Origin: Pegea sp. RAD2-039 | Lineage: Eukaryota; Chordata; Thaliacea; Salpida; Salpidae | Assembly: GCA_034620365.1 (NCBI GenBank) | Contig: JAQGEQ010000170.1 | Location: 927,335 to 991,334 of the forward strand | DNA: 64,000 nt | Direction: 5' to 3' | Shown: piece by piece, positions 10,774-62,527 of the stretch | How the letters are laid out: each line of letters begins with the position of its first letter | How positions within the stretch are numbered: position 1 is the stretch's first letter | Position numbers and translations under genes: made by a program | The notes under the pieces: generated by a model | Told to the model about the DNA's origin: nothing | What the model saw: the letters and a program-made list of their open reading frames with translations, nothing else | Database searches by the model: none

Positions 10774-13127
<2,354 letters not shown>

Positions 13128-39310: not shown

Positions 39311-40220
39311 CCAAAGTATCTAAATTGAAGAAGCTGAGACGATGTTTATAACTATCGTATTTAATATTAAGTTTCTTGCATACCAACCTCGTATATATTG
39401 CTTGACCGGATTTAGTTTTTTGATATCACCAACTTGATATGGCATCCATGCATTGACATTTTTTTCAAGAATTAGACGTATGTACATTTTAAAGAGGTTG
39501 AAAAGTTAAATAAGTATGGATCCTTAGAAATAAAGGACTTTACAATATGGCAAACAAGATGATTGATTTTGCAAAGATCTTGTAATTCCAATTGTGCCAT
39601 TTAAATTCAGATGATAGAGTAAGGCCAAGGTTTGGGACCAAAGATATTCGTGGAATAATAAATTCACTGAAGGAATATCGGTTTAAGCAAATTGCAGCTG
39701 GTTTACGAGAGAAATTTGTAAGTTCAGACTTTGTGGGCTAGATTCTGAGCTACCAGTTCGTAGACTAGTTTTCTATAGTGTGTAGTGCAGCTAGAAGTTT
39801 TGAGGGGTTACAAGATAATAGCTTGACGTCACCTGCATACACAAACACTCTAACATCATCTACTGCTACTAGTCTTCTGATAAGGTCTTCAATGAAAAGT
39901 AAAAAGAGAAGGGGACCCAGAACAAAACCCTGAAGAGCCCCATTGATGGCTTGATTAAGAATAGAGAAAGATTTTTCAACACGAGTTTGGCGAATTCTAC
40001 CTGATAAGTAATTTTCAATCCACTTTAATATAAAGCTGTTGATTTTTCATTTTTGTAAAACAATACTGAGCTTGTTGCGTGAAACAAAATCAAATGCCTC
40101 AGCAAAATTGAGATAGATGGCAAGAAGTATTACTTTCATTAAGCTGTAAGTGTATCAAACAAAGTGAGATGTTGAGTTATATATAATCTCAGAGACATTT
40201 GTGAGAAAGTCGGAGTAGGA
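39311..40220 (-). mobile_element. Decayed Jockey/CR1-like reverse transcriptase fragment
   Basis: A different LINE lineage from the one next to it. On the minus strand, FAEAFDFVSRNKL, WIENYLSGRIRQTRV, LQGFVLGPLLFLLFIEDL and VFVYAGDVKL match RT blocks of the Jockey/CR1 superfamily, followed by LEKNVNAWMPY and a C-terminal region toward 39311. The catalytic YADD is changed to YAGD, and there are stops, so it cannot be active. Confidence 0.75.
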
Positions 40221-40895: not shown

Positions 40896-41849
40896 TCATT
40901 TTGCAATTAATAAAGTAAAGTTAAATGAAGGAAATATTAATTTTGAGGATGCAGCACCCATATAATAGAAAGTTTTGTCAAGAATGGAACTTTTGCAAGA
41001 AATGCTAAGTTTGTTTTTCAAACTTTTCCAAACTGACTTTTTCTGAGGTTTAGGTTCAACAGCCATATTTAATGGTGAAACCCGATTCTTCCTCATAAAC
41101 AAATTACAAAAACTAGATGAGCTTCTTGCTTTAATCGGTGTAGTTTTGATGGTTTCTTTAAATGGCATATATTCAAAGCTTTGCTCAATACTTTTCTTTT
41201 TTATTTCATTGTTATTGCCATCACCTCCAGCATAAAACGAATCAATGCTTTTTATTTCATCTATGGATTTTAAACTATCACCATCTCCATCACAAGCACC
41301 ATGAGTATCACTATTTTCAGAGCTAGTTGATATAATGTCTTCAACTAACTCGGGAATACAAGGCGGTATGCTAAGATTTTGTAGTTGATTCTTAAACTCA
41401 GCTTTTGTTACAGCTAAATTTCTTTTTTTACTCAACTGAATCTTCTTTTTATTTTTCTTAGAATGTTTTTTAGATTTTTTAACTTTAGGTTCCTGTGTGG
41501 AAATCCACAAAGGTGGAAGCCCATTAATACGTTTGTAGGGCTTGTTACAACCAATTTTAAGGTTCTCTAGTGAATAACTTCTTCTTCGAAGCAAGTTAGT
41601 TTCTTTATGGCTTTTCATCACCAGCAAGGGTGGAGCAGAGTCTGGTCGAGAATTACCATCTCGATTCAGGTTTATTTTTTCAACATCGTCGATGTTAAAA
41701 TCTTCCTGAAGACAAATTTTTTCAAGGGCCAGAAACTCCCACAACTCGATTTTATCTTCGAGTAAACGATTAAAATGAGAGCTGACTCTATAATCATTCA
41801 AACTTGGCTTCACTGAAAGACTCATTTTAGAAATTCGTGAAATGCTCAT
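40896..41849 (-). CDS. Intronless 317-codon gene of unknown function, copy A
   Basis: A 317-residue, probably nuclear or cytosolic protein. It has no signal peptide; a hydrophobic end (FPSFNFTLLIAK) is too short and terminal for a normal membrane segment. Visible features: a conserved-looking N-terminus with WEFLALEKICLQEDF (about 36-50), an RRRSYSLENL segment (about 87-96), a GLPPLWIST motif (about 109-117), a strongly basic Lys tract (about 122-140) that could be a nuclear localisation signal, a Ser/Asp/Gly-rich acidic middle, and a basic C-terminal region with KKSVWKSLKNKLS. I do not know the family. It differs from copy B at about 18 of 317 residues, with no frameshift or stop in either, which argues that both are used. 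Confidence 0.75.
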   Translation of the reverse strand: MSISRISKMSLSVKPSLNDYRVSSHFNRLLEDKIELWEFLALEKICLQEDFNIDDVEKINLNRDGNSRPDSAPPLLVMKSHKETNLLRRRSYSLENLKIGCNKPYKRINGLPPLWISTQEPKVKKSKKHSKKNKKKIQLSKKRNLAVTKAEFKNQLQNLSIPPCIPELVEDIISTSSENSDTHGACDGDGDSLKSIDEIKSIDSFYAGGDGNNNEIKKKSIEQSFEYMPFKETIKTTPIKARSSSSFCNLFMRKNRVSPLNMAVEPKPQKKSVWKSLKNKLSISCKSSILDKTFYYMGAASSKLIFPSFNFTLLIAK

Positions 41850-42539
41850 ATGCGTGCCGAATACTAATGATAAAATGTGTTAAAACTTGGTGAAAGTATA
41901 AAGATAAAAGGTTTAATAGTGACGTCATAATTTAATTGGGTAACAACTGAGCTCGTTGTCAAAATAGTCAGAGGCATCAACAATCTCAGTGAGGTATCTT
42001 AAACGCTTGTTTCAACTTTTTAAATATTTTAGTAAAATGAAATCTCAGCTATTATACATGCCATAAAAAAGTTTATCAAATATAATTTTTGATTTCTACC
42101 ATTGAAGAGTGAAGTAAATATCCTTCAGTTAAACTTTAATCTTATAATCATCCTATAACAAACATATGCAGTCACATGTAACAAAGTAATCAGTATCTTC
42201 TAATTATTTATGAAATCTTAGTTTGAAGTTATAAAAATATAATTCATATATTATCAGTTTGTTGTTGAGTTAGAAATATTTTGTTAAACACTTTTTAGTG
42301 TATCAGTACAATAGTTCATTATAACTTATTGAAAAAATCAGAACACAACAAAAGTACAACTATAACACAGTTGGCAATTACATAAAGCATAAATCCCAAA
42401 AATTGATAAATTAATAAATCACTCGTCAACAAAACCATTATTTTTAAACTTGATATAAAAAGATGTCAGAGAATTGGCTGTAGTGATGGAGTCTCATATG
42501 TAACCAACATCTATGGCTTTGACTTTATATATTTTTTCT

Positions 42540-43599: not shown

Positions 43600-44010
43600 A
43601 GAAGCTCTCAAAAAGTCAAACAAAGCTTTTGGCTGTAGTTCACTAGTGCAAGCCATCAAAACTTGGACTCTGTCAAAGTCTAAAACCACAAAAGAGATTC
43701 CCGTCAACCAGAAAAGAATCAGGATAAAACGGTTTCAACCAAGTTTCAGTAATAAAAACAAATGTAAAATCTTGAAAATGCAAAACAGCTTTCAATTGAA
43801 AAATTCTATTAATAATCGACCGCGCGTTGAAGAGCATACCTAATGTGATAGAGGAATTGTCTTTTTGACGCTCGTGAGATTTGATGATGGGCTTCTGTGA
43901 ACCAATATCTTGGGCTGGAAGGATGGTATTCACAACTGTGTGCGAACAGGATGTGAAAAAAGAAGATGTGGGACCAGTGGTTACTTACCACTTCTCTTTT
44001 TTGAAAAAAA
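43600..44010 (-). mobile_element. LINE endonuclease fragment (Jockey-like)
   Basis: On the minus strand the frame 43673-43933 contains MLFNARSI, FVFITETWL and YPDSFLVDG, the opening blocks of an APE-type endonuclease of Jockey/CR1-type elements. Only the first third of the domain remains. A short plus-strand piece at about 43634-43680 repeats sequence found at 42705 and 56458. Confidence 0.7.
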
Positions 44011-45594
44011 ACCTTGACAATTCTCAAGGCCCATGGTGGACCTCTAACTTTGTATTTTAAATCAGTTGGTTGTTTCTTTTGATTTCGATTATAAGTTTCC
44101 TTAGAAAAACATTTTTGTAAATAAACTGATTTAACTTGCTGCGAGGAACCTGAACTTATATAACAAGTAGAAATGAATTATGCAAAGAAACTTTGACAAA
44201 TATTTAGATATATTTATTATCAGTTAAATACAAGTATGCAAGTTGAATTTCTTTGTAGCTTTTTATAATTCAAAATATTTTATTCTTAAAGTTTTTTGAG
44301 TGTGTCAAATTTCAAAAGCTCTCTTTTCGAAAAAACAAAACAAAATTTCATTCTTACAACTACAAATTAACTTAACATGTTTTAGCAGTAAGTAATATCT
44401 ATTAAAAAGCAAACAATTTCAAGTACTAGGGTAAAAGAAAATTGTATAAGCTTGATTATATTACAGTTAATAATTCGCCTTGCAAAAAACGATAAATTAA
44501 CTACATTTAAAAACAAGAATTAATTTCATCTAGCTTTCATTGATTGAGTTTAATTCTCAAATATCGATTTTAACAGTTTTCAGATAAGTTTAAACTTTAA
44601 ATATCTTTCTTATGTTTTAAGCTGATGGCTGAAGTGATGTTTTCAAAGAATAAAAATCATATTCTAATTTTGTCAAATTATTTTATTTATTAATTTATAT
44701 AATTTGCTATTTGCTCACATCTACACTAGAATAGTCTTCCAAAGCTAAAGTTGAACCAACTATGACACTAATGACGTCATAATGCAGTTTTTAGTTGATG
44801 GGTGAATATAACAATTATTATCAAATATTTTTCACTTGATTTAATGAACTAACTGCGTTCTTTGTATAAAGCCGAAATTCAAGTTATCATGGAAAAAACT
44901 ATTGAAGTAATTTGATTTTTGTAATCTATTATCAGTTTTAATCTTTATAATGCTTAGTGTAGTATTGATTAAAACTTTATATAAGTATTTTAAACAAAAG
45001 AAGAGTTTAAACATTTAGTTGCTTAGACTTACGTAATAAAAACCAGTTTTTGGTGCGCTGGCGTCAGTTCTGCTTCAGACTTTTCGGTGGCAGAAAAGTT
45101 GTTTTAAGTCAAATAGAATCATTTCTTACAAAAATTTGATTTAATTGTTGATTATCTGCATATTTAATGAAACTATTAATGTCTTCTAAATAAGTTTTAT
45201 GCTACATTTGAAATCAGAGCATAACTTTTTTTAGCTTAAAATTAATAGTAAAAAGTAGTAATAAAATATAATAATTGCTAAATCTTTTAATGGTTATTAG
45301 ATTAGTGAGTTTATACATATAAACATTTTAATTAAACATTTGGGACTTTATGAGGTCTAGAAAGTTTGAGTTTGTTGGTAGCTATTAAGCATTTCTTACT
45401 TTTTACAAACTAAAAAATGGTTATAAATAAAATGAGTTTTTGCCGAATAATGTATTTAGTGCTTTTAAATGAACAATTTTTGTGCTTGAAAGTCAGCAGT
45501 GATAAGAACTTATTTAATTTTTAAGGTATCCTAAAAAACATTAATAAAATAAGTAATTATCTTATATTAATTGAATAATTGCAATTTTTTTAAG
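44011..45594. other. Sequence upstream of the mini-exon gene; first exon not found
   Basis: The gene that follows lacks an identifiable start, so its promoter and first exon(s) probably lie here. I found no ATG-initiated block that joins the first mini-exon in phase 0 with a good donor. Candidates near 44633 and 45349 fail on phase or donor. Confidence 0.4.
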
Positions 45595-48500
45595 GTCTCA
45601 AATACTAATTCTGTTGAAGTTGTTGAAAGTATTTTCAACTCTAAAGGAGAAACAGGACTCCCTGATCTTTCTAAGGTGAGGAAAGTTTCAAACTGTTTTG
45701 AACTTGTTCTTTAAGTGTCGATTTAACTTCTTTAATTTTTGATTATTCCAACTACATGTTCAAAATAAATATAGATTTTAAAACTTACAAATTTGATCTC
45801 AAGTTAAAAAAAACTCTTTTTACCTGTTTAAAATCATTTTTTTAATTCCTCATATATAATAAATAATAAATTGTATTTAGCAGCAGTTTAATAAATATTT
45901 ATCATGCGCTAATTTGACAATTAAATTTTACAGCGGTCTGTATCTAACAACGATGACGTCACTGCTTCTCTTCAAGAAGTAAGTTGTATTTTAAAACACT
46001 GAAGATAAACTTGAAGTTTCTTTTATTATTCAAGGGAGTTGTTATTGGTAAAACTAGTGATTATGAAGAAGTAGCTTTCAATTGCATAGGAGCTTCTGAT
46101 TTTTCTGAGGTGATTAAATTCTGAAAAACTTCTATTTTGTTGTCAATTGATTTTTACGATACAAAAGTAAAATTAAATAAAAATAAATTGAATGCTTTTG
46201 ACAAATTTTTTTAACAATTATTCTAAAGTTATCGATATTGTCAAATATTGTAAAATGTTGTTTAACTTTTTTTACTTATTTTCAAGGAACCAATTTCAAA
46301 AGTAAACGAGAAAAAAAGTTGTTCATCTACAAGCACTTCAGATATACTCCAAGTATGTAGAAATTAAAACATTTGATTTGAGCTATTAGGTGTTTTTTAT
46401 AATTGTTTTAAAAGTTTTAGCCACTAAAATAATTATTAATCTTCTTACTAATTTATTACCTTAGATGTAAATTTAAAAACAAACTTTTACAGCGATCTGA
46501 TTCTAGTGTTGATGACGTCATTGAGTCTTTTGGGGATGTAAGTTGGTTTTAAACATCGAAAGAAAGAAATCTCTAAAACTTAATTTTATCTATTTCTTTT
46601 CAAGGGAGGTGTTATTGGTAAAACTGGGAGTGATAAAAGATCGGTTTTGAACTTTTCAGAAGATACTAAAGCTTCTGATTGTTGTGAGGTATTCAAGTTT
46701 GTAATTCTCTATTTTTATTCTTCATTATTTTATGTGATTTGTTAAATAAACAACTAACTTTGAAGATGATGATAATAAAAATTAATATTTAACATCTAAA
46801 ATAAGTATTCAGAAAAGTTATCGATTATATTAGAATAGTAAATAAAAATATTCTTATTTATTTTCAAGAAAACCGGTTTTGTTTCAAACGGAGCCGATAC
46901 TAAGAATTCTGCATCTGAAAATACTCCTGAAATTTCTGAGGTAAAAAGAAACTGAAATAAGTATTCATAGTTTCAAATTGCTTTTTGTAATTATTTCCAA
47001 AGTTTTTTATCAATATTATGACAGCCACAACTCTCAAGTGAAAATTTTTAAAGAAGTCTCATAACAAACTTGATCAAAAAGATCTTTACAAATCAAAACT
47101 TATTTAAATCTTAATTATCTAATACAAAAAAGGAGATACAAAAATAACAAAAATATAATTAAGAAATTAACTTTAGAATTAATTCATCAATGTTGTAAAC
47201 AATTTTATCAATTTGTCTTTTTAAATTTTTTCTGGTATTTCAAATTAGAAATATTTGCTTGCAAATTTACTTTAAAACTGAATTAACGATCTAACTTATC
47301 TAACTTTTAAACTCTTTAATGCTTGTAGATTGTTCCTTTTGGTTTTGATTCTGATGTATCTAATAAAGATGCCCCAACAATTGAAGATGCCCCAACAATT
47401 GAAGACGTGAGTGTTTCATCTTTTCCTTAAAAGTTTAATAAAATTATTTTGTTTTACTTATGCAAATATGATTTTAAGTTTTAATGTTTTTGCAAACCAA
47501 TGTTTATTATTAAAATAATCTTAAACTATTTTTACAACGAGTTTATTATTAATTTAAAATATCTTCAGTATCTAAAAACTGATATTTGGAAAGATCTTTC
47601 TGCCGAGAAGAAATTACATGGGGAAAAATTGAATGTAAGATCTCTAACTTATCTGTGCATTTATTTCTTATACTAATTTTTTAACATTAAATAAAGTGTC
47701 TGAAACCAACTTTTTGAAGAAAATGAATTTAAGATAAATAAACCAACTTAAAATTAACCAGTTATTAAATTTCAGAAACCAACTACAAAAACTTCAGAAG
47801 AACTTTTGGATGAAGAAACAGCAAAAATGGTGGAGGTACTCCATCATACAGTTCATATTTAGCTACACAAATTATTTATATCTCATATTTATCAGTTTAA
47901 AACAAATTAACTTGAAGCTAATCACTATTTTGTTAATGTATTTAACTATTGATTTTTAAAACTAGGAGCTTTTGAGTGATGATATCTTTGACTCTGAGCA
48001 AAGTACAATGATAGAAAAAGAAAAAGAGAAGAAGGAAAAGATGAAGGAGCAGTGTTTGCTTGAATATGAAGCCAAACACAGAAGAGTAACTTTTTTTCAA
48101 ATAAATTATTGTTGTATAAAGACTCTTTAGTTTGTTTTAAAAGTTTTGTAAAAATTTGGTGATTTAAACTTCCTTTTATTTTTTTAATGTATATTTTTCT
48201 AATTTGTCTCAACTTTTAGGTGGTTTTTACTGATCCAATAGTGATTGGGAGGACGGAGCCTATCCTGGTTATGAAATCACTATTGAAGAAGAAGGGTCCA
48301 GCCAAAGTAAGACATTAAATTGTTGAATAATAAACTTAATAAGAACTAATTTTCAAAAACTTTTTTCAGATATCACAAGTTGCATCTTATAGTGATGAAG
48401 AGTTTGAGCTGATATCAGATGTAAGTTGATTTAGAAACTGTTAGTTATCACCATTTATAATTTTTATATTATTTAATTTAGTTGTTGAATGATTTTTTGA

Positions 48501-51500
48501 ATAAATTATCAAAATTGTTTTAACATCATTTAAAAAACTCAGAATCACATTTAAATCATATTAATTTTAAAACAGGATAATTTGGATGATGAAGAGCTTT
48601 TTGAAAAAATTAATTTGTTATTAAAGAAAAAGTCTGAACATAAAGTCAGTATTTAAAATTTATAAATGAAACTTTTAGCAAATGAAATATTAGTAAATTT
48701 TTTATTTTTCTTATTATTCAAGTTCTGACGGAAGTTATTTATTATAGCAAGAAGTTAATTTGTATTTCTAAAACATTTCTTATTTTTACAAACTAAATAC
48801 TTAAAATAATAAAATAACTTTTTGCCGAATAAAATATTTAAAACTTTTAAAATCAAAAGATTTGTGCTTGAACGACTGTAGTGATAAGAATTAATTGATT
48901 TTTAAAGTACCTTAAAAATTATTTATAAAACAAGTAATTATCTTATATAAATTGACTAAATTTTAAATTGTTTTTAAGGTTTCAAAAACTGATTCTGTTG
49001 AAGTTGTTGAAAAAAGCATTTTCAGCTCTAAAGGAGAAATAGGACTCCCTGATCTTTCTAAGGTGAAGAAAAATTTAAAATTCCTTAGAAATTAGTTTTT
49101 ACTTGTTGATTTAATTTCTTTAACTTTTTAAAACTTTAGAAACAATTTTATATAAACAAAAAATTTTATCAAATTTAGCTTAATTATATTTTTGTTTATT
49201 TTCAAGGAACCAATTTCAAAAGTAAACGAGAAAGAAAGTTCTTCATCTACAAGTGCTTCAGATATACTCCAAGTATGCAGAAATTAAATTATTTGGTTTG
49301 AGTTTTCAATTACTTTTTAGAATTATTTTAAAAGCCAAATATCCCAAATACTAATATTGAAGAAATCTAACAAAAAACTCACTTACACATCTTTCTATAA
49401 ATTAAAACTTCAAACAAATGTTTTATTTATTAAAATATTACTTATTGATTGTTACTGATGATAAGCTATCTACTAATTGACCTAAAATAATCATATTTCA
49501 CTAAAATTTCTATAAAAAGTTCAAATTAATAATAATCGGTATCAAACTTTTTAGGAATTCATTAATCAACCATCTAATGATGTAATCAATAACAACACTT
49601 TGACTTGTAGCAAGGTAGGTTTTCTTAGTTAGTAGATTGAATAAAGAGAATGCTTCTGCTCAAAGTACTTTAGAAAAACCAAATATCACTTTTTAATTTT
49701 TAATAAGGAGCCTGAAACTACTGTAACTGCAACTGATGGAAAGCTTGAATTGAACCCAAATGTTAGAAGTCCTGACTTATCCAACGTTGTAAGAGTTTTA
49801 GATATTTTTGTTAACTCTATGATATGATAGAATCAGAAAATAAAATATTTAGTTTTGAAATTAACTTAACAATCTAACTTATTTCTAGCTTAAAATAAAT
49901 ATTCTTTAAAATCTAATTAAAAAGCAATTTAAAAGTTTGTTGAGGTAGAATTTTAGGTTAGAATTGATTACCTTAGATGTAAATTTAAAACCAAAATTTT
50001 ACAGCGATCTGATTCTAGTGTTGATGACGTCATTGAGTCTTTTGGGGATGTAAGTTGGTTTTAAACATCGAAAGAAAGAAATTTCTAAAACTTAATTTTA
50101 TCTATTTCTTTTCAAGGGAGGTGTTATTGGTAAAACTGGGAGTGATAAAAGATCGGTTTTGAACTTTTCAGAAGATACTAAAGCTTCTGATTGTTGTGAG
50201 GTATTCAAGTTTGTAATTCTCTATTTTTATTATTCAATCTTTTATGTGATTTGTTAAATAAACAACTAACTTTGAAGATGATGATATTAAACATTAATAT
50301 TTAACATCTAAAATCAGTATTCAGAAAAGTTATCGATTATATTAGAATATTAAATAAAAATATTCTTATTTATTTTCAAGAAAACCGGTTTTGTTTCAAA
50401 CGGAGCCGATACTAAGAGTTCTGCATCTGAAAATACTCCTGATATTTCTGAGGTAAAAACAAATTGAAATAAATGTTCATAGTTTCAAATTGCTTTTTGT
50501 AATTCTTTTACAAGTTTTCTATCAATATTATGACAGCCATAAATCTTAATCTTATAAATCTTAAGTGAACATTTTTAAAGAAGTTTATTAACAAACTTGA
50601 TCAAAAAGATCATTTGCAACTCTGAATAATTTTCTTTTCTTTTAATGCATAATTTTTATTTATTTATTTATAATTATTTAAGAAATATATAAATAAAACG
50701 TATAGTAAGTGAAATATTAGTGTAAACATCTATTTTATTGCTCAAGTTCTAACAGAAGTTATTTATTACAGCAAGAAGTTGATTTGACACCAAACATTTA
50801 CAGAAAAAAACTGTCTTCACTTCCCATATCGAAGGTGAAAATAAATATTGTTTACTTTGTGATAAACCTTCAATCATAAGACTTGTCAAGATTAATTTAA
50901 TTGCAACCTACCAAAAAATAATCATTGAATTCTATCTACTATTGACTTACAAAACTGAAACAAATCTTGTAACATATATAAATTTTATCAAATTTTTATC
51001 TCATTGTTACTGCATTGTAATAATTTGCTATTTATGTTCCATATATTGGTATTTCTAGATAGACTTTAATCAATCATTTTTTTACACAACAATAGGTACC
51101 AAAAGTTCAAAATTGCTTTCTGGAAAATCCAAAGTTGAAAGCAAACAAACTAGAAGGAAAAATCACAGATGAAAATGAGAATGTGAGATTTAGAATTCTT
51201 ATGTTAAGTTTTGAAACAATATTAATCAAAAGTTGTTTTCCAAATTTGTTGTGTTAATTGATTAATAAAATCATTAAAACATGTTTTTACTCTCTAATAA
51301 AATATAAGGTGATCTTACAAAGTTTAATTTTGTATACTAATTTTTTATCGAATTATGTTTTGCTTAAAATTTTGGATTCTAAAAATTAAATGTCTATTTC
51401 AACAGATTATTGAAGACACAATAATACAACATCCAAATATGATTATATCTGAGAATTACAACAAATTGGTAGATTTTCTTTTGCATGCTTTAAAAATAAA

Positions 51501-52461
51501 ATTTCAAATTTAATATTTATCAACTTTCTTCTCAAATTAAGTTTTTGCAAACAGCTAAACTAAAAAGTCAATTTTAAGGCATTTTTAATATTATTATTAT
51601 TTTCAGGGTTTTCTTGGACCCAATTACAGCTTGGTTTTACCTGAAATTAAAGAGTCAACCAAGGTAAGTGTTTTGCTTAAAAACCTTTTATGTCAGTTTG
51701 GAAATCATGATGATAATATCTATCTATTTTTTAATTAAGGTTACAAGCAAGTGTAATGACGAGGACTTTTTGGCCAATGAAATAAAACCAAAAAAAAAGA
51801 GTAAAATTAGAAAAGTAAATTATAATTACCAAATGTTAAGATCATTTAGAAAAATAAATAAAAAGTTATTTTTCTATCTTTTTTAAATTGACCTCTGATA
51901 TTAACTTTTTTAATAGTTTTTTAGAAATCTTCTGGGTCTAGATAGGAATAAAGTTGTAGCTCTGGTAAGTTCAAAAAGCTTATATTTTAAAGATTTCTGT
52001 TGATAATAATTAATTTGGATTCTGTTTTATTAAGAATCTAGCTAAGTAGTTTTGGTTATAATTGAAATTAATTTTTTAATAAATATCAAACTAAATAATT
52101 TATTACAAAAACCTTTAATATTTTTATGTAAGTTACAAATAAAAATGTATTAAAAATATCACAGACTCAAAAGGACCTTGAAATTGAAGAGGTAACATTT
52201 AAATAAGAAAATCTATTGGCAACAGTTTTTTAACTTTCACTTTTCAAGATATTTTCTTTTATTTATACTTTTTACTTTCATAGAAAATTAAAGTAGCGAA
52301 AAAACCGTCATTAAACATTTTCAAGTGCTTCCAGTTTATGAGTAAGTTAACATGTTACTTATTTTCTTCTTTTAAAGAGTTATTATAAATGAAATACTTT
52401 ACTCATGTTTTGTTAATAAACATCAAAAATGTTTTCTTTTTTAGAAAAGAAGTTCTAAACA
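45595..52461 (+). CDS. Mini-exon gene: about 30 small phase-0 exons with internally repeated modules
   Basis: Exons with good GT-AG signals: 45595-45675, 45934-45978, 46035-46109, 46287-46352, 46493-46537, 46605-46688, 46869-46940, 47329-47406, 47569-47634, 47776-47835, 47966-48085, 48220-48306, 48370-48420, 48576-48644, 48979-49062, 49207-49272, 49555-49614, 49708-49788, 50005-50049, 50117-50200, 50381-50452, 50772-50834, 51096-51182, 51406-51468, 51607-51663, 51740-51814, 51917-51964, 52165-52191, 52284-52341, 52448-52461. All but the last two have length divisible by three and phase 0. The joined frame has about 660 codons, rich in Asp, Glu, Ser and Lys, without signal peptide or membrane helix, so probably disordered. 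Exon ends repeat the pattern LPDLSK, SDFSE, PEISE, SDILQ. One long charged helix lies at 47966-48085. I do not recognise a family. The 5' end is missing, and an alternative last exon frame runs to about 52589. Confidence 0.72.
46458..47090. repeat. Intragenic duplication, left copy (partner 49975-50615)
   Basis: About 630 bases, including three exons (RSDSSVDDVIESFGD, GGVIGKTGSDKRS..., KTGFVSNGADTK...) and both introns, are repeated about 3.5 kb downstream in direct orientation with only scattered differences, in introns as well as exons. Such intron conservation means a recent duplication or gene conversion. Confidence 0.9.
49975..50615. repeat. Intragenic duplication, right copy (partner 46458-47090)
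   Basis: Same three-exon block as the left copy. The exons at 48979 and 49207 are also duplicates of those at 45595 and 46287, so the duplicated unit was larger. The two exons at 49555 and 49708 are found only in this copy. Confidence 0.9.
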
Positions 52462-52884
52462 AAAGCAAAAAGGGATTCAAGTTTCTACTCCCAAATTATT
52501 TTCTGATTCGCACGCTTTCCTGTTTCAAAAAGTTTCTTTCAAGTCGCGCTTTCCTTTCTTGGAATATATTTTCAACTCTAACTCAATGATTTCAAGATCG
52601 CCTTTGATAACTCGTCAATGTAATAAAACTCGATTTTAGCAAATAATTAAGTCTGTTTTTATCAGTTCACGCCACTCCCCACTATAATCAAATTTAATGC
52701 TCATACATGAAGGTAGTATTAGATCCAACATACACATCTAAAAGTATAAGTAGGTGATATCTAAAAGCCACAGTTACGATTTTGCTCTTAAGTAGTCTAG
52801 GGTATGAGTTGTCTTTGCCATGGTGCAGAGATAAAAGAAGCATCTGGTGGCAAAATATATGAGATAATCCCAATCTGAAAGTTG

Positions 52885-53000
52885 TTTGATGCTGATTGGT
52901 TATAATTGGGTGGTTGATACTGGTTGGTTAATTCTAGTGAATTGATACTGGTTGGTTGATACTGGGTGATTTATATTGGTTGGTTGGTGCTAATGATACT
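52885..53000. repeat. Degenerate short tandem repeat
   Basis: Irregular units around TTGATACTGGTTGGT repeat about six times. No coding frame. Confidence 0.6.
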
Positions 53001-53127
53001 TTTAAATTAGAGTAAAATCAGTTTGTTGATTTATTTTCTTTCAATAAATTTGTTCATTAACTCATTAAAAGTTAAGTTGAATGAAAGAATCTGATATTAT
53101 ATAACAATTATGCATATATTTTAGACG

Positions 53128-53335
53128 TTAAACTCTTAATTTACAACCAGAGTTGAAGCCTTGTAGGCAGTCTGTCGCTGTACTCAAAGTCGTTCTAGCT
53201 GCTCCTGCGATGCTAGCCGAGTGAGACCGCGTTAGTCCGTCTGTTACGTCACATAACCTTGAAGAGTGGAATCCTGCTGCATAGGCAACAACTGGATTTC
53301 TACAATTTCTCTTCTGGTATATTTGCACAATTATT
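53128..53335 (+). mobile_element. SINE body, copy 2 (head lost)
   Basis: Inverted relative to copies 1 and 3. It shares the segments around GTACAGCGACAGACTGCCTACAAGG (here on the reverse strand) and the ATCCAGTTGTTGCC-like end. No tRNA-like head remains at the 53128 side. Confidence 0.6.
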
Positions 53336-53344
53336 GGCTGAAGT

Positions 53345-53745
53345 AGGACGAAAAGAACATCTAATAAAACACCGTGACAAACATTGCGCTAGATAAAATG
53401 GAACGTTAACCAATATTCATAAGATGATATAAATTGTTAACTAACAAGAGAAGAATTTACAAAAGCTAATTCTAATATGAGTTCTGGAAAAGAACCAAGC
53501 AACAACGGTGTACCAACTGACTTACTAACACAATGCAAAGTTTGTCTTCTTCTCTTTTCTATTTTAATCAAATGTTGGAGAGAAAGAAAAAATTTCACAA
53601 GAAATTCACGATGCAAAGATCATTTTACAGAAATAAAGGATGTCAGATCTGATTGCAATATTCACATAGGAAAATCGTTGCTTAAAGTTGTAAAGTATTT
53701 GGAGGTTTGCTACTTCCTCTTCTGCAAATATCGCTGAAAGAATAA
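53345..53745 (+). mobile_element. LINE fragment, diverged relative of 38700-39310
   Basis: Aligns with the linker and first RT blocks of the LINE at 38930-39260: a TAATAAAACACCGTGACAAA-like start, the GVPTDLLTQCKVCLL block (compare SPDLLKHCKTSLL) and a CNIHIGKSLLKVV end. Many substitutions; dead. Confidence 0.65.
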
Positions 53746-54164
53746 ATCCAGAGTCAAGTTGAAGGTTTCGATCTAACATCTTTTTCTGTTAAGATAAGCT
53801 GTCATTCTGTTGATGCTAAATCGTTCTGCTAATTTGGAAAGCAACAAGAAAGTTAATTTTGCAACTAATTTTAGCTTCAAGTTTTAAAATTTCAAGAACA
53901 TTTTCTTTTAATATATAGTAACATTAAAAAATACTAAAACTTCCATTTGAAAGATGATAAAAACAGTTTGAAGCTAATGATATGAGAAGACAAAAAAGTT
54001 TAAGGTTTTATGTTTTCAGAAATCAATTTTTAAAGATAGATAAAATAAATTATTAAAGTAAGCAGCTTAATGTGAAAATAAAAAAAGTTAAATCTTTCAA
54101 AATTAACATAAAGATAAAAGTTCTTAGATAAATTGCTTAATATCATTTAAACGCACTATTTAGC

Positions 54165-56505
54165 ACTACATGCTGGATATTTTGCAAATATAATTACAAT
54201 TTAGATACCCATCCATTTGTGTGATAAGTCGAACAGTTTTAAGAGTTAAATTCTAAATCAAGGTAGCCAAACTTTGAGCTTTATAAGAAGTCTTGAATAT
54301 TTTATTTTTAGCTTGTTTGTATACTAAACAAATTTGTAATTATCGAAAATATTGCAAACAATTGATTTCAAACAAGAATTATGTTTCTCAATCATAACTG
54401 ATTTAATATATCAGACAAAAAGTAATATACAATCAAACTTTTGGCTTTTTGTTTGTTTTATTGAATGAAATAATATCAAAAATCGTGAAAACGTTTAAAA
54501 GTTTGCAATAATGCAGATTAATAACAAAGTTTTCAAAGATTGTGAATAAATTAAAAAATTTATCATCACTTTTTTTGAAAATATTTGAAGAGCTTTCTAT
54601 CAAATGTTCTTATATTGAAGTTTTATTGATGTTTGCAAACATCCACAATAATTCAATTCATTTTGCAATTAATAAAGTAAAGTTAAATGAAGGAAATATT
54701 AATTTTGAGGATGCAGCACCCATATAATAGAAGGTTTTGTCAAGAATGGAACTTTTGCAAGAAATGCTAAGTTTGCTTTTCAAACTTTTCCAAACTGATT
54801 TTTTCTGAGGTTTAGGTTCAGCAGCTATAATTAATGGTGAAACCCGATTCTTCCTCATAAACAAATTACGAAAACTAGATGAGCTTCTTGCTTTAATCGG
54901 TGTAGTTTTGATGGTTTCTTTAAATGGCATATATTGAAAGCATTGCTCAATACTTTTCTTTTTTATTTCATTGTTATTGCCATCACCTCCAGCATAAAAC
55001 GATTCAATGCTTTTTATTTCATCTATGGATTTTAAACTATCACCATCTCCATCACAAGCACCATGAGTATCACTATTTTCAGAGCTAGTTGATATAATGT
55101 CTTCAACTAACTCGGGAATACAAGGTGGTATACTAAGATTTCGTAGTTGATTCTTAAATTCAGCTTTTGTTACAGCTAAATTTCTTTTATTACTCAACTG
55201 AATCTTCTTTTTATTTTTGTTAGAACCTTTTTTACTTTTTTTAACTTTAGGTTCCTGTGTGGAAATCCACAAAGGTGGAAGCCCATTAATATGTTTGTAG
55301 GGCTTGTTACAACCAATTTTAAGGTTCTCTAGTGAATAACTTCTTCTTCGAAGCAAGTTAGTTTCTTTCTGATTTTTCATCACCAGCAAGGGTGGAGCAG
55401 AGTCTGGTCGAGATTTACCATCTCGATTCAGGTTTATTTTTTCAACATCGTCGATGTTAAAATCTTCCTGAAGACAAATTTTTTCAAGGGCCAGAAACTC
55501 CCACAACTCGATTTTATCTTCGAGTAAACGATTACAATGAGAGCTGACTCTATAATTATTCAAACTTGGCTTCACTGAAAGACTCATTTTAGAAATTCGT
55601 GAAATGCTCATATGCGTGCCGAATACTAATAATAAAATGTGTTAAAACTTGGTGAAAGTATAAAGATAAAATGTTTAATAGTGACGTCATAATTTAATTG
55701 GGTAACAACTGAGCTCGTTGTCAAAATAGTCAGAGGCATCAACAATCTCAATGAGGTATCCCAAACGCTTGTTTATTCTGTTTTAAACATTTTAGTAAAT
55801 AAAATCTCAGCTATTATACATGCAATAAAAAAGTTTATCAAATATAATTTTTGATTTCTACCATTGAAGGGTGAAGTAAATATCCTTCAGTTAAACTTTA
55901 ATCTTATATTCATCCCATAACAAACATATGCAGTCACATGTAACAAAGTAATCAGTATCTCCTAATTGTTTATGAAAGCTTAGTTCGGAGTTATAAAAAT
56001 ATAATTCATATATTATCAGTTTGTTGTTGAGTTACAAATATTTTGTTGAAAACTTTTTAGTGTATCAGTAAAATAGTTCACTATAACTTTCTGAAAATAT
56101 AAGAACACAACAAAAATCCAACTATAACACAGTTGGCAATTACACAAAATATAAATTCAAAAAATAATATTTTAATAAATCACTCGTCAACAAAATCATT
56201 ATTTTTAAACTTTATATAAAAAGATGTCAGAGAATTGGCTGTAGTGATGGAGTCTCATATGTAACCAACATCTATGGCTTTGACTTTATATATTTTTTCT
56301 ATCTCAGTTCAAAAATAGCATCATCAGTATCAATAGAAGCCGAGATCAACTGCTGCATCGGTAAAGCAACTGACACATTTGCACAGTTCACCTCCAGGAT
56401 TTGGATACTCCAAAACTATCTATCAGAACCAAGGCTTCCATCTATAAAGCCTTCGTTTGTAGTCCACTAGTGTAAGCCATCAAAACTTGGACTCTGTCTA
56501 ATAAA
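54165..56505. repeat. Segmental duplication, unit B (partner 40390-42745)
   Basis: Second copy of the 2.35-kb unit, same orientation, on the other side of the mini-exon gene. Similarity on the right ends within the LINE fragment near 56500. Confidence 0.85.
54658..55611 (-). CDS. Intronless 317-codon gene of unknown function, copy B
   Basis: Same length and architecture as the gene at 40896-41849. Replacements are scattered and include several in the Lys tract (KGSNKNKKK in place of KHSKKNKKK) and in the C-terminal third (SPLIIAAE in place of SPLNMAVE). No indel in the whole frame, while the 3' flanks have indels, so purifying selection or gene conversion is likely. TGACGTCA lies about 70 bases upstream of both ATGs and may be a shared promoter element. 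Confidence 0.75.
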   Translation of the reverse strand: MSISRISKMSLSVKPSLNNYRVSSHCNRLLEDKIELWEFLALEKICLQEDFNIDDVEKINLNRDGKSRPDSAPPLLVMKNQKETNLLRRRSYSLENLKIGCNKPYKHINGLPPLWISTQEPKVKKSKKGSNKNKKKIQLSNKRNLAVTKAEFKNQLRNLSIPPCIPELVEDIISTSSENSDTHGACDGDGDSLKSIDEIKSIESFYAGGDGNNNEIKKKSIEQCFQYMPFKETIKTTPIKARSSSSFRNLFMRKNRVSPLIIAAEPKPQKKSVWKSLKSKLSISCKSSILDKTFYYMGAASSKLIFPSFNFTLLIAK

Positions 56506-56720
56506 CTCATCATTTTCATTTTTGCTGACATTTTAGTATCAAACATATAAAGTGGCAGCAAAAGATCTCCAGCAAAGAAAGTGCACTGGAATGGCAATGA
56601 TGTACAACATGCGAGGCCACCTCAGGTTTCGCTGGTGGGGTCACAAACGTGGTCACTTATAGTTCATGATGACAAGTGTAGATGATCTCTTAGACACCAT
56701 AGAATAAACCAGAAAGTTTA
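56310..56720 (+). mobile_element. LINE RT fragment at the end of duplication unit B
   Basis: The INCCIGKATDTF block as in unit A, continuing beyond the point where unit A stops. About 200 further bases of GC-richer sequence (56520-56720) may be the rest of this insertion, but I cannot assign them to a domain. Confidence 0.55.
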
Positions 56721-56872
56721 TCAATTATATCAGTTGATTTAGATTGTGAGCCAACAACATTTTGAACAGTTTGCTTTTTGACAAGATGAATTTTAAAAGA
56801 AACATTTTTTTTTGAAGACTTTCAATAATATATAATTTTAGATACAAATTTTCAGTACGCGAATGATTGAAT

Positions 56873-57822
56873 TTATTTTAGCAAAATCACTATAACCTTT
56901 AGATTTTCAAAAATAGTTTGATATCTCTGATTGAGAGAAAGCGACGTGTCGATTCTTAACATCATTTTATCTAAATTCCCAATCATATGTCTTATTTTCT
57001 AAAAAAATAAATGTTATTTGATTGATTAATTAGTGGTTTTTGTGACATCTCAACAAAAATAACTTTTCCAAATGTCTTATTAATCTAAAAACTACTTTTC
57101 TATTTAACTACTAAAATAATATATTTAAATGGATTTAATTATCCTGCAACAGAAGGTTACTTACAACCGCATTAGTCTTTTCGTATTTATCTTTCTGTAA
57201 AACCTGAAGATTTTTTTTGTCGTTCTCTAATTTTTTGATCGTATTTAATCTCAACCTTCTTTCGTGAAATAGTTTATCTTTAACAAGTTTTAATTTTCCA
57301 GTTGACAGTTCTAGCTCTTTTAAAGTTTTCTAAAAACAGTTTTAGTTAATTTTTTACTTAAAAATAACTAATTATATTAAACAAAATAACAAATTTCAAC
57401 AATAGCTTAAAAAAGAAGAAATGAACAAGTTAAGTTACATGAAAGTTATTCTGTGTCTTCAAACGAAGTCTTTTTTCAACAATCTCTTCTAAATCATAAA
57501 TTTGACTTGTGCTTAAACCAAGCAATTCTTTCCTTAATGATTTCAATTCCAAAAGTGTTTCTTGAATTCTTGAAGAGTTTTTTTAATTAAACGATGGTAG
57601 TCTTCACCTTGAATACTTCTTCGTTTTTCTATATACATTTGCAATCATAATTTTGTCTGCGTTACTTTTTCTACTATGAATTAAACAGAACTTACCGGAA
57701 AGCTTTATCAAAGTTTCATATTGAAGACTTTCTTCATTTAAAGACTTTAATCTTGCTTGAACTCTATTAAAGTTTAGCTCGATGCAAGAATCACCTCCAC
57801 ACATTTGATCTCTTTCCGACAT
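56873..57822 (-). CDS. Small coiled-coil protein, four exons, 179 residues
   Basis: Exons (minus strand): 57696-57822, 57439-57560, 57165-57329, 56873-56998; sum 540 bases, phases consistent, donors GTAAGT, GTAACT, GTAAGT. The protein starts MSERDQMCGGDSC and is then almost wholly helical, with heptad-like Leu spacing (LKSLRKELLGL, LKELELSTGKLKLV) and a short end MIGNLDKMMLRIDTSL. There is no membrane segment. It resembles axonemal or centrosomal coiled-coil proteins in general; the RYQTIFENLK end recalls outer-dynein-arm docking proteins, but this is only an impression. I give no gene name. Confidence 0.7.
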
Positions 57823-58339
57823 CTTAAACAAAATCAAAATTTTTGTTGTCTAAAACTGAGGTTATCAAAATATACTTTTCTAATTTTTAATCTAATTAAT
57901 TATACTAAGTGGTATTCAACTTAAAATTTCACGGCAATAATAAGTATAAAGAGAGATGCTCACTATAAGGTCTGTGCGTCTTTTCTTTGTTATAGAAGTT
58001 AGTAGTAGTAGTGTAGCTTAGACAAGATTTTACAAGATTGTATAAAAAGTTGGACGACTGTAGATAACACATGTATGACGTCACTAAGGCTAATATTCCG
58101 AAAAATCGTTTCACTTTCTCCTAATATTTTCGACTAATTTTGTTTATTTATTTATTAAGTCAAATTATAATTATTAAAAATATTTTAAAAATTTTCCAAT
58201 AAATAATATAAATTAATAATTAGGCTAATATTAGCAACTAATTATCAATATTTAGTCGGTTAGTATTCAAAAAACCCTGAAATGAAAATTAGTCTAAGAA
58301 AGACAAAAGTTAACACTATACGAGTAATCAATATTTATA
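57823..58339. other. Intergenic, no gene seen
   Basis: AT-rich upstream region of the coiled-coil gene, with one TGACGTCA at about 58077. Confidence 0.4.
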
Positions 58340-58527
58340 GCTGTGGCGTTCAAGCTTTGAATAATTCTGTCGATCTTGCCACAAAAATGACATCATCAGT
58401 ACCAATAGGACCCGAGATCAACTGCTGCATCGGTAAAGCGTTTTTAAGTTGGAAGGATATTGCAGCAGATCGCTCCGAATGGCGCTCTCTACTCCGTAAA
58501 CAACTGAATGGTAGAGAAAGAAAATAA
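58340..58527 (+). mobile_element. LINE remnant with internal deletion
   Basis: The INCCIGKAF block is joined directly to the C-terminal tail of the element (DRSEWRSLLRKQ), which in the copy at 4500-6420 lies about 400 bases further on. An internal deletion removed the region between. The frame happens to be open. Confidence 0.65.
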
Positions 58528-59639
58528 CTTCAATGAAAAAGAGAAAATCCTGAAAGCATTTAGTTCTTTTGCATCTCTCTGTTTTAGCTACTTGATGTTA
58601 GACTCGTTTTAAGTGACAGGAAGCTGAAAGCTTATATCTTGTCAGCTCATTGTCAATATCTTCATTTGTTAGGTCCTATTTGAACTTTTTATTGATCTCC
58701 TATTACAGATAGCTTTTGATTTTCATTTGTGAAGCAAACACATAATCTTATGTTGAGCTTTTAACTTGAACAAATCTGAAATTACCGTTTTATCTAATTT
58801 AATATTATTTATCATTATTATTTAATATCTTATATGTTTAGCGCCATGTGACAAATAATAAATTATACAGGTCTTATAGCGAACTCAGAATAATATGACT
58901 ATAAAGAAAAAAGAGGTCACATGTACCCTGACACATCATCAGTAGTTTGTAAAAAATAGAGACACTGCAATGACAAGCTTATGTAAGTTATAAAAAAGTT
59001 AGGAAACTAATAAGTTACAAAATAAACAGAAACAATAGAGAAATTGTACTTGTTACTACATTACTCAGTCTGTAGTATCACATGATATCAACAGAAACTA
59101 AAATGGTACAAATTATTGAAGAAGAGTATTTAGATATATAGTAAAATCAAAACTGATAATTTTGATTCTTATTGCTATAAAACAACTGAATTAGCTTTCA
59201 GAAGACTTTAAGATAGTTTCATCTTTGTTAAGCATAAATACCTACTAACCACAAGATTTGGAATAATTTTAAAATGTGAGCTTGTATACACCTAGACAAG
59301 CTTATATTAGAAAAATGTTACGATACCCACCAATTTTAAATAAATGCTCAACTATTTTATTAGAATAAAACTTTAGAAGTAATTATTATACTTTTTGATG
59401 GTTTTGAATCATGAAACTTGAAATTATCATGAGATCTACTTATTTCAACATTTCATTTAGTTAATAAAATCATTTACATACTTTTACATAATGATACTCA
59501 TCAAGCAACTTGCCTAAATTTTTAGTATAAATAAAGAGTTTAAAAAGTTTGAATTCAAAAGAAACAGACTTGATATAAAACCTTCAAATGAAAATTATCA
59601 TTTACGTTAGAAAGGAAAAGTAGTATGACCTGTTTTGGC
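58528..59639. other. Intergenic, no gene seen
   Basis: AT-rich; no exon-like block recognised. Confidence 0.4.
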
Positions 59640-60005
59640 CGAGAATGGTCAAGTTGTTTGACAGTGTAGAAGTTATGAAGATCCAGTTGTGACCATACAT
59701 CAACACCCCATTCTCCACGCAAGCCAGCTGATGTAACAGAACAACAAAACTGATGCGGCTATGCCCAACTAGCGTTGCAGGAGCTGCCAGAACGGCACTG
59801 AGTTCAGTGACAAACTGACTAATCCGGCTTTAAAATCAGTTTTGCGTCTCCTAGAAGTATTGTCACAAAACAGACTAACAAAGTCCTTCTACCCGAGCCC
59901 TCTTATGGACGATTTATTTTCGCAAATATGAGTTCGCCTGAGCCAAAATCCAGGACCTTCTGCGTGTCAGACAGGTCTGATAATCGCCACAATATAGGGA
60001 CAGAC
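59640..60005 (-). mobile_element. tRNA-Val-derived SINE, copy 3 (degenerate head and body)
   Basis: On the minus strand a tRNA-Val-like head (about 59930-60005, anticodon region CTGACAC, i.e. GAC) is followed by the same body as copy 1, including the shared junction TCGCAAATATG (plus-strand view) between body and head. The head is more decayed than in copy 1. The different anticodon base suggests either mutation or a different founder tRNA. Confidence 0.65.
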
Positions 60006-60581
60006 AAGTAGCAAAAAGAAAATGTAGCAAATAGGCCATCAAGCAATTTTTTTTCTAGTTAGTTTTATTTGATAGTTAGATTAGATTAAATATTTTGTAA
60101 ATTGTATTATCATTTTAAAAAAAGATTTCCTACTTTTGATTTAGCATTTCTACTGGTTTTATAAATTTAGTTTTAATTTGAAAGAATCAACTAATATTCA
60201 ATTGATAAGCTAAAATTTTTCAGATTATATTTAGAAAATTTTTTTTAAATACTTCAAATAATATTTAAAAATAGACATAAAAGTCATACTAACTTATTTT
60301 ATACTATTATCAATATTTTCATTTATTTAAGTCTTTATATAAACTTGTTATTATGAAAAAATTGGATAGTTAAATAATAAAGATGTATTTACTTTCTTTC
60401 AAAATCTTATAAGAGTTATTAGAATTTTGTACAACAAAATCCTGTAAAAATTAGAAAAATATGTTTAAAACAAATATAAATAATAACATATAAATTTCTA
60501 TAAAATCAAACTATATCATTGTTAAAGTAAAAATCAAATTAACTTTTATTTCAGTATTTTTCTGAGAAGCTATTATCAAAT
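60006..60581. other. AT-rich spacer upstream of the secreted Cys-rich gene
   Basis: Very AT-rich, no gene seen; presumed promoter region of the next gene. Confidence 0.4.
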
Positions 60582-62527
60582 ATGAAAAGTTTTTTGTTGA
60601 AGTTTTTTATTTGTTTCATTCTTATGAACCAAACATTAACTGTAGTCGGAGGTAAGAATTATTATTTAGTTTTATTACAAGTAAATAAATATATCATGAA
60701 AAAATAATATTCATTAATTCAATAAAGCAAATAAAGCATCACTTTTGATATTCAAGAACTTATACCAGCTTTAATAGAGGAAATAATTTCTGAACTGATA
60801 ATAAAATTTTAATATTTATAGCTTCAAAATACTATCTGCTTACTAAGAGTTGTAAACAAAAATAATTTCATATTCGATAAATCAAACCAATGTTTGTTTG
60901 AAAGATTGTTTTATTACTTTAATATAAAACTCATTGCTAATTTCTTTAACACAGATGACCCAGATTGTGGTGATGGACAGTTCTTGGATCTTATATCTTA
61001 TAGATGTGTATCTGGATGTGAGGAAGGACACCTAAAAATACAAATAGATCAATTCGCTGGTGTATGCTATCGTGAGTTTATTTTCAATTCAAATCTTTTA
61101 TAAATCTATATAAGTTTAAAAATAACGAAAAGGTTAAAATGATTCTAATAAAATGTTAATAAATTTCATTTAATATTTCAAAAGTCGTATAACTGATTGA
61201 AGTAAATTATATTGTTGAGTAACATTTCGAAATCTACTCACAAGATGCTTAAACAAAGAAATCAAACTATTTTTGGGTTTAATATTGAGATCTAAAAATG
61301 TATCCATAAAGCAACTACTTATATCGTTAGAAATGAGGAAAATTAATAATAGTAATAATATTGTCTTTTTAATAGCTTCCACGTTTAAAACTTAATTCTA
61401 TCCTTTTCTTTCTACTTTGATTATTAATACTTAAACAACCAAATCTCACAAGGCCCTCATTAAACGCTTATCTTCAAAAGTTGAACGAATTGAATAGTTT
61501 AATGAAAGAAATAATAAATTAGATTATCTTGTTTTCACTTGCTTACTTTTTTCTTTTTAGCCTGCGAGTCACCTTGTAAGACATGTGAAGAAAGAACAGA
61601 CTTTTGCTCAAGCTGTGAAGAAGGTTATACTTTAGAAAATATAGATTGTATTCAAACAAGTAAGAAGAATATAAATCTGAATATGAACTTATTTTAATTT
61701 CAAATAATTTTCTAAATATTGAATCAAAACTCGGCGTAAAAATTTCTTTTAATTTCAGACCCGGACAACTTATCAGTGATTACCACCGAATGTGGGGATG
61801 GGATGTTTCGTGAAGTCGATACTGGAAAATGTGTATCTAGGTGTAAGGAGGGATACCTAACCTTACAACCGATACAGAAACCTGGTTCATGTAGACGTAA
61901 GTTTATATGCTGATGATTAGAATTTCTTTTAAATACTTTTGAATTTACTTTTATCAAAAAATAGGACAACTGTTTCTAGAAAATGACCAATTTATTTTAT
62001 GAGTAGTAACTTTTAAATCAAAATAAAAGGTCAAGTATTGTCCATATTACAAGTTGCCTAAAGGAAAAAGTAGAACTATTACTTGTCCTAGACAAATTAA
62101 CATATTACAAAATCATTTTGAAAGCTCACCTTCATTATCACTTTGAATGATGATGTCGTAAATTACCCTGAGTCATCATTAGCAGCTTCAATCTTAAAAT
62201 ATTATCATTAAAAATTCAACATGATAATTTAGAAGATTGAATTTTAAATTTTTATAAAGATAAATAGAAAAATTAATCGCAATATCTACTTTTTATTTTC
62301 TAGCCTGCCAGTCACCTTGTAAGACCTGCGAATTAAGAGTTGACGTCTGTATGTCGTGCGAAGAAGGTTATACTTCAAATGCTTGGGGTTGTTTGAAAAC
62401 AAGTAAGTTGCTCATGAACCCAAAAACCGATTTATTTCCAAGAAAAATGAATAAAATTTTAAGACTCTATTTGCAGCTCAACACTAAAACTAATTTTCTA
62501 ATTTCAGACTCTGACAACTCTCAGTAA
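60582..62527 (+). CDS. Small secreted cysteine-rich protein built from two duplicated exon pairs
   Basis: Exons: 60582-60651, 60955-61071, 61561-61659, 61759-61896, 62304-62402, 62508-62527, all joined in phase 1; 543 bases, 180 residues. Exon 1 is a clear signal peptide (MKSFLLKFFICFILMN, cleavage near residue 23). Exons 2 and 4 encode a CGDG...RCVSGCEEGHL / CGDGMF...KCVSRCKEGYL module, and exons 3 and 5 (both 99 bases) a CESPCKTCEERTDFCSSCEEGY / CQSPCKTCELRVDVC module. This spacing is that of furin-like or growth-factor-receptor-type cysteine-rich repeats, which usually serve in binding. The protein is therefore (signal)-(A-B)-(A-B)-short tail. A similar short last exon at about 62930 (RNKNSDYSS, stop) may be an alternative end. 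No orthologue recognised. Confidence 0.8.

Follow-up and report, generated by a model that had tools for sequence, protein, structure and literature searches.

A family of phase-0 mini-exon genes with a conserved core and in-frame cassette differences in the tunicate Pegea sp. RAD2-039

The vertebrate SCPP genes, which are clustered and fast evolving, have small phase-0 exons and encode acidic, disordered, secreted products with S-x-E sites, and the PEVK region of titin is a disordered segment encoded by many small in-frame exons within a giant muscle protein with Ig/FN3 domains. Here we analyze a mini-exon gene of the tunicate Pegea sp. RAD2-039 and the multigene family to which it belongs. 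The gene is located in a stretch of 64,000 nucleotides (assembly GCA_034620365.1, contig JAQGEQ010000170.1, positions 927,335 to 991,334 of the forward strand), hereafter the window, to which all positions given without a contig refer. According to the excerpts of the sources cited, the closest described systems have the following characteristics. (i) The micro-exon genes (MEGs) of schistosomes have signal peptides and seem to be restricted to platyhelminths (PMC4350168); their exons measure 6 to 81 bp, mostly 15 bp, and their introns 0.1 to 5 kb (PMC10526429). (ii) The bicycle genes of aphids have internal exons of phase 2, and many of them encode signal sequences and CYC motifs, genes of many like-sized exons in a single phase being rare (PMC9168663). 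(iii) In the solved complex with phosphatase 1 (PP1), the protein PTG carries an RVVF motif and, downstream, a SILK-like SALK motif (PMC9582199).

The window gene comprises 31 predicted coding exons at positions 44889 to 52458 on the forward strand (Table 1), and the predicted protein has 666 residues. An earlier note, made from the letters of the window, had described about 30 phase-0 mini-exons at 45595 to 52461 that encode repeated acidic modules. This layout is confirmed: the 28 internal exons within 45595 to 52191 are all flanked by AG and GT, are in phase 0, are multiples of three in length, and contribute 9 to 40 residues each. They measure 27 to 120 nt (median, 67.5 nt), and the introns between internal exons A to W measure 56 to 388 nt (median, 155 nt). 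The extent required correction, as the gene starts at 44889 with an exon encoding MEKTIE and ends with the TAA stop at 52456 to 52458. Similarly, phase 0 holds for 29 of the 30 introns but not for the last one, and the stretch at 48748 is not an exon but derives from exon Q, being a decayed copy that contains a stop (48650 to 48762 versus 50675 to 50786; 79% identity). The gene has no internal stop and no in-frame ATG from exon A to exon I. When positions 1 to 44000 and 53000 to 64000 of the forward strand and the whole minus strand were scanned for such exons, none of 3,186 AG-open reading frame (ORF)-GT candidates matched. The acidic character of the modules is mild, with a net negative charge in 20 of 28 internal exons, 3 being neutral and 5 positive. 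The motif D[LIFC]S occurs six times, as compared to 1.3 times in shuffled sequences (the exon copies not being independent), but the strict ending D-(L/F/I)-S-(K/E) proposed for the exons was found in only 4 of 28. A block carrying exons E, F, and G (46450 to 47094) is duplicated at 49962 to 50622 with 93% identity.

The comparison with the known systems revealed likenesses and differences. (i) As in schistosome MEGs, the coding region consists mostly of small symmetric exons (all 28 internal ones), evolves fast, and belongs to a multigene family. Unlike in MEGs, the exons are longer, the introns between A and W do not exceed 388 nt, and the genome is that of a tunicate. Furthermore, simple hydropathy revealed neither a signal peptide nor a membrane stretch in the joined product read from MEKTIE (over the first 50 amino acids, the hydropathy of 12-residue stretches peaked at 0.42), so that the gene is not of the schistosome type, a parallel that the earlier note had drawn. 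(ii) With the bicycle genes it shares membership in a large, fast-evolving family and many small exons of nearly one phase; in contrast to them, this phase is 0 in all 28 internal exons and no signal sequence was seen by hydropathy. (iii) The small phase-0 exons, the acidic and putatively disordered products, and the clustered, fast-evolving genes resemble those of the SCPP family, which differs in having a signal peptide and S-x-E sites; S-x-E is not enriched here (8 occurrences versus 8.8 in shuffles). (iv) With the PEVK region, a parallel also drawn earlier, the genes share many small in-frame exons for a putatively disordered product; they differ in that no titin domain was detected by Pfam and that they are short members of a multicopy family rather than one giant gene. 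A relative of titin, SCPP, or MEG genes was consequently rejected on the basis of the missing domain, signal peptide, and S-x-E excess. No Pfam match was obtained for the 665-residue joined product, and no PDB match either, which agrees with the earlier statement that no signal peptide or known domain is seen. Among the papers listed from the open PubMed Central library for micro-exon genes of tunicates or for disordered families in phase 0, none was recognized as describing this family. By these searches the family appears to be new, with a layout that is already of a known kind; its proposed intracellular nature would set it apart from both the MEGs and the bicycle genes. Taken together, the earlier view of a fast-evolving, modular single gene is supported and its observations stand, its interpretation stands in part, and the first exon, the multigene family, the conserved core, and the co-amplified neighbor described below had been missed.

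The family was compared within the source genome (105.7 Mb in 387 contigs, which carry labels such as C21, C236, and C385). A search with the gene tail retrieved 26 places, namely, 8 close ones (85 to 100% identity, window included), 15 distant ones (77 to 78%), and 3 partial ones (77%). One partial place was fetched and is a relic with a stop in exon T, from which both the upstream exons and exons U to W are missing. With gaps ignored, tail identities were 92 to 99% in the close group, 95 to 99% among the distant genes read, and 78 to 80% between the groups. We read 16 genes, i.e., all 8 close and 8 of the 15 distant ones (two distant genes being truncated, one at the 5' and the other at the 3' end). 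For exon positions A to W, 441 of 448 were open, in phase 0, and bordered by the usual splice sites; this number includes exon H of C244, which scored below the cutoff and was found open between usual sites by eye. In some distant copies, exons B, H, and T had been missed with an initial peptide cutoff; most of these exons were recovered with more reference peptides. The seven damaged positions are distributed over 6 of the 16 genes, the window gene having none, and comprise 1-nt deletions (K and E), lost donors (M, J, A, and G), and a lost acceptor (R). We scored as damaged J in C180, A in C236c, and G in C21b, where the usual donor is gone and a later GT is taken. The other four damaged positions, at which no exon was detected, are K and M of C236b, E of C21b, and R of C62. 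In the gene tails, exons were free of insertions and deletions (indels) in the 7 close comparisons and differed by a single compound change, in frame overall, in the 6 distant ones, whereas the introns contained 7 to 36 indels in each of these 13 comparisons, most of them not divisible by three. As far as genomic sequence can tell, these data show a real protein-coding multigene family with in-frame cassette differences.

Exon order differs between the genes (damaged exons are treated as present in these readings). Six of the eight close genes have the order A-D-O-P-E-F-G-H-I-J-K-L-M-N, A-D-O-P-E-F-G-N, and then Q to W, whereas the window gene and one C236 gene start with A-B-C-D-E-F-G and lack N before Q. 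Distant genes read A-E-F-I-J-K-L-M-N, followed by zero to two repeats of A-B-F-G-H-I-J-K-L-M-N, then A-B-C and Q to W; the second cassette of C45 lacks H to N. Counting K-L blocks, the 15 distant genes contain at least 23 cassettes, with one in 8 genes, two in 6, and three in 1. These counts are lower bounds, and C233 and C244 are possibly truncated at contig ends. Of the 40 matches of the cassette search, 9 were left out as short and lie outside the 31 cassettes. Every cassette difference between genomic copies keeps the frame; the earlier proposal that exons can be duplicated or lost in frame is thus borne out between copies. An exon-L-like relic precedes the first exon A by about 1.2 to 1.3 kb in each of the three distant genes inspected.

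Selection differs along the protein. Between the window gene and the distant gene C385, the ratio of nonsynonymous to synonymous divergence (dN/dS) was 0.25 for the core J-K-L-M (bootstrap, 0.13 to 0.42) and 0.43 for the C-terminal exons Q to W (0.22 to 0.82), as compared to 1.62 for modules A, E, F, I, and N (0.74 to 5.85) and 1.02 for modules A, B, C, G, and H (0.59 to 2.08). These block values stem from single pairs with bootstrap; those obtained with C265a were similar. Values per exon, calculated from sequence pairs of 14 of the 16 genes in rows that are not independent, were lowest for exon L (0.09) and ranged in the modules from 0.44 (B) to 1.92 (E). The core and the C-terminus are thus under purifying selection across both subfamilies, and the module exons are, by these ratios, not distinguishable from neutral. 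Synonymous divergence is very low in some modules, which inflates their ratios; exchange between copies is perhaps the cause of this low divergence.

The strongest constraint coincides with a short motif. At the junction of exons K and L, 21 of 21 cases read [KR]R/VVF[TN]D, in which the slash marks the intron, R closes exon K, and VVF opens exon L; VVF[TN]D begins exon L in 22 of 22 copies. This is the form of an RVxF motif, the docking site for PP1, with basic residues before it and an acidic one after it, and a SILK-like SLLK follows downstream. The order of RVVF and a SILK-like motif resembles that in PTG/PPP1R3C, as far as the excerpt cited above describes it, here in the core of a mini-exon family. 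It differs from PTG/PPP1R3C in having no carbohydrate-binding or other Pfam domain and a different spacing, and in that the motif is repeated within one protein in part of the distant subfamily. Our leading interpretation, which we hold tentatively, is the joint claim that the genes encode a family of mostly disordered, probably intracellular scaffold proteins with drifting linkers and a conserved PP1-type docking core. In each protein, fast-drifting linker modules (most of A to I and N to P) would be combined with two constrained parts, the core (J-K-L-M) and a C-terminal part (Q to Y) that contains basic stretches, and the core would serve as a short docking module for PP1 via RVVF and SLLK. 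Since nearly all introns are in phase 0, unequal recombination can gain or lose whole exon cassettes in frame, and the same layout would permit exon skipping. As distant genes have one to three cassettes, the valency of the scaffold would depend on cassette number. The extension of this idea to programmable phosphatase scaffolds, in which recombination, perhaps together with splicing, sets the number of PP1-docking modules per protein, and in which skipping of exon K or L would switch docking off because the intron splits the docking motif, is quite unlikely.

A number of points weigh against the PP1 scaffold interpretation. (i) RVxF occurs in its loose form in 60% of shuffled proteins and may be due to chance; the strict form, in contrast, was seen in 2.5% of them, which favors the interpretation. 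(ii) The gap between RVVF and SLLK is 16 residues, as compared to 36 in PTG according to the PTG numbering in the excerpted source. (iii) Disorder is predicted from composition only. (iv) With seven damaged positions in six genes, some family copies may be failing. (v) The constraint in exon L extends past the motif, most of its 29 residues being conserved, and might serve another partner. This last point leads to an alternative that is only slightly less plausible, namely, that the coding family is the same and the partner of the core is not PP1 but, for instance, of the cytoskeleton, the chromatin, or the germ line, with RVVF as a coincidence in a conserved segment. The charged exon K, which is helix-prone by eye, and the basic exons U and V are consistent with such a partner, whereas the strict motif at all 21 junctions, with the arginine and VVF on separate exons, argues for PP1.

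That exon choice generates many isoforms with a role in immunity, allorecognition, or surface variation, as in schistosome MEGs, is unlikely. In its favor, any subset of the 28 internal exons would stay in frame, since each of them is symmetric, the frame would survive the skipping of any of the seven damaged exons, and several modules have dN/dS values near or above 1. These ratios are, however, inflated by few synonymous changes and their bootstrap intervals include 1, and the hydropathy result for signal peptide and membrane stretches also argues against this reading.

Table 1. Positions of the mini-exon gene, its conserved elements, and the neighboring ORF in the window
Feature	Position	Strand	Support
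Conserved 5' block comprising TATAAA (44865-44870) and exon X	44800..44930	+	Identity to distant copies
Exon X, MEKTIE, phase-0 donor GTAATT	44889..44906	+	Intact in aligned copies
GC-rich conserved element, first intron	45052..45092	+	Identity among four copies profiled
Exon A, first copy	45595..45675	+	
Exon B	45934..45978	+	
Exon C	46035..46109	+	
Exon D, first copy	46287..46352	+	
Exon E, first copy	46493..46537	+	
Exon F, first copy	46605..46688	+	
Exon G, first copy	46869..46940	+	
Exon H, in-frame 18-nt tandem repeat inside	47329..47406	+	
Exon I	47569..47634	+	
Exon J, conserved core begins	47776..47835	+	
Exon K, charged, helix-prone (by eye), RR/KR at end	47966..48085	+	dN/dS 0.20, close vs distant
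Exon L, strongest constraint; K/L junction [KR]R/VVF[TN]D	48220..48306	+	dN/dS 0.09; junction 21/21
Exon M	48370..48420	+	
Exon N	48576..48644	+	
Decayed exon Q copy (QEVNLYF, then stop), no exon	48748..48771	+	
Exon A, second copy	48979..49062	+	
Exon D, second copy	49207..49272	+	
Exon O	49555..49614	+	
Exon P	49708..49788	+	
Exon E, second copy	50005..50049	+	
Exon F, second copy	50117..50200	+	
Exon G, second copy	50381..50452	+	
Exon Q	50772..50834	+	
Exon R	51096..51182	+	dN/dS 0.16
Exon S	51406..51468	+	
Exon T	51607..51663	+	
Exon U, basic cluster KPKKKSKIRK at end	51740..51814	+	
Exon V	51917..51964	+	
Exon W, 9 codons	52165..52191	+	
Exon Y, 58 nt, phase 1 end, donor GTAAGT	52284..52341	+	Donor in all 13 aligned copies
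Exon Z, last coding exon, KKKF-stop	52445..52458	+	Stop in 12/12 other aligned copies
AATAAA, likely poly(A) signal	52622..52627	+	
327-codon intronless ORF, co-amplified neighbor, tail to tail with mini-exon gene	54661..55641	-	
Second window copy of 327-codon ORF, upstream; protein 94% identical	40899..41879	-	

An intronless ORF of 327 codons is located downstream, on the opposite strand and at full length, of each of the eight close genes. It is present in 19 stop-free copies of 91 to 100% identity on C25, C236, and C21. Broken copies exist as well, and C6 and C21 carry remote relatives. The ORF had no Pfam match and represents a second amplified family. This neighborhood, together with the near-neutral linker modules, is compatible with a young amplicon, perhaps selfish or involved in germ-line competition, in which the modules are free to drift and the genes are kept mainly by co-amplification with the ORF. 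Such an origin is very unlikely in view of the purifying selection on the core and C-terminus in both subfamilies and of the six distant gene stretches searched, none of which contained the ORF (C45 and C62 were outside that search). Near the edges of the amplicon, at 39765 to 40046 and 43673 to 43984 on the minus strand, a PF00078 reverse transcriptase match just under the cutoff and an endonuclease-like ORF, seen by eye, suggest retroelement remnants.

The two ends of the gene are conserved. All 13 copies compared (the window gene and 12 aligned ones) have an intact MEKTIE, and among the best 25 of 38 ATG-to-GT candidates at 44000 to 45700 no other candidate is undamaged in each of the 12 aligned copies, which speaks against an upstream signal-peptide exon. 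TATAAA precedes its ATG by 24 nt and was seen in 12 of 13 copies. In 50-nt bins, 44800 to 44949 shares 88 to 96% identity with both distant copies that were profiled, as compared to 56 to 78% in the adjoining bins. This block with its TATAAA is likely to be the core promoter. At the distance given, a usual start site would fall close to the ATG. At the 3' end, the intron between exons Y and Z is in phase 1, and the stop of exon Z is conserved as TAA in 11 of the 12 other aligned copies and as TGA in C371. That the locus consists of several genes or a decaying remnant is extremely improbable: the damaged positions, the decayed Q copy, and the three partial places would fit it, but the common 5' block and 3' end in 13 of 13 aligned copies, the matching exon order between them, the purifying selection, and the lack of an internal stop and of an in-frame ATG in A to I speak against it. 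Upstream, a TATATAA-bearing block (44128 to 44235) is retained in distant copies and absent from four close ones; it is possibly a second or older promoter. The first intron contains a GC-rich element, single in the window, of which 45050 to 45099 is 88 to 100% identical across the four copies profiled from both subfamilies. A coding exon at 45052 to 45092 was rejected by eye, as the fitting frame is shifted by one base in C371; an Rfam RNA was rejected as well, with no Rfam match and an ordinary fold (z, 0.15). The element is probably noncoding.

Other observations concern the window and the genome. At 10884 to 18711, a row of ORFs resembles gamma-glutamyltranspeptidase by eye, one tested ORF matches PF01019, and this suggests a tandem array. 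The genome has an 18S gene; a second ribosomal RNA unit on C1 is truncated, diverged, and adjoins simple repeats, the longer unit being on C27. On C14, matches to PF13632 (GT2, cellulose synthase type; 72156 to 72689, E = 4.7e-15) and PF01341 (GH6; 74494 to 74718, E = 1.2e-4, with 27.5 bits just above the cutoff of 27) are about 2 kb apart on one strand, and a second GT2 match there carries stops. At signature 2, an ORF lying just before the GH6 match has the sequence LIVLEPSLL, in which Ser replaces Asp. According to an excerpt of PMC7464555, tunicates characteristically have a CesA with a GH6 domain, which lacks the catalytic aspartate there; the CesA-type GT2 beside GH6 thus indicates a tunicate genome. 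An arthropod genome was considered as well and gave no match to cuticle domains, which is weak evidence against it, as no control gave a signal either. COX1 was not detected in the assembly.

The family provides a natural example of protein growth via in-frame exon cassettes. A single genome displays different stages of this process, with one, two, or three cassettes, a partial deletion, and damaged and decayed exons, and the family permits the parts of one modular protein that are held by selection to be told apart from those that drift. The data also suggest that the layout of micro-exon genes is not limited to secreted parasite proteins.

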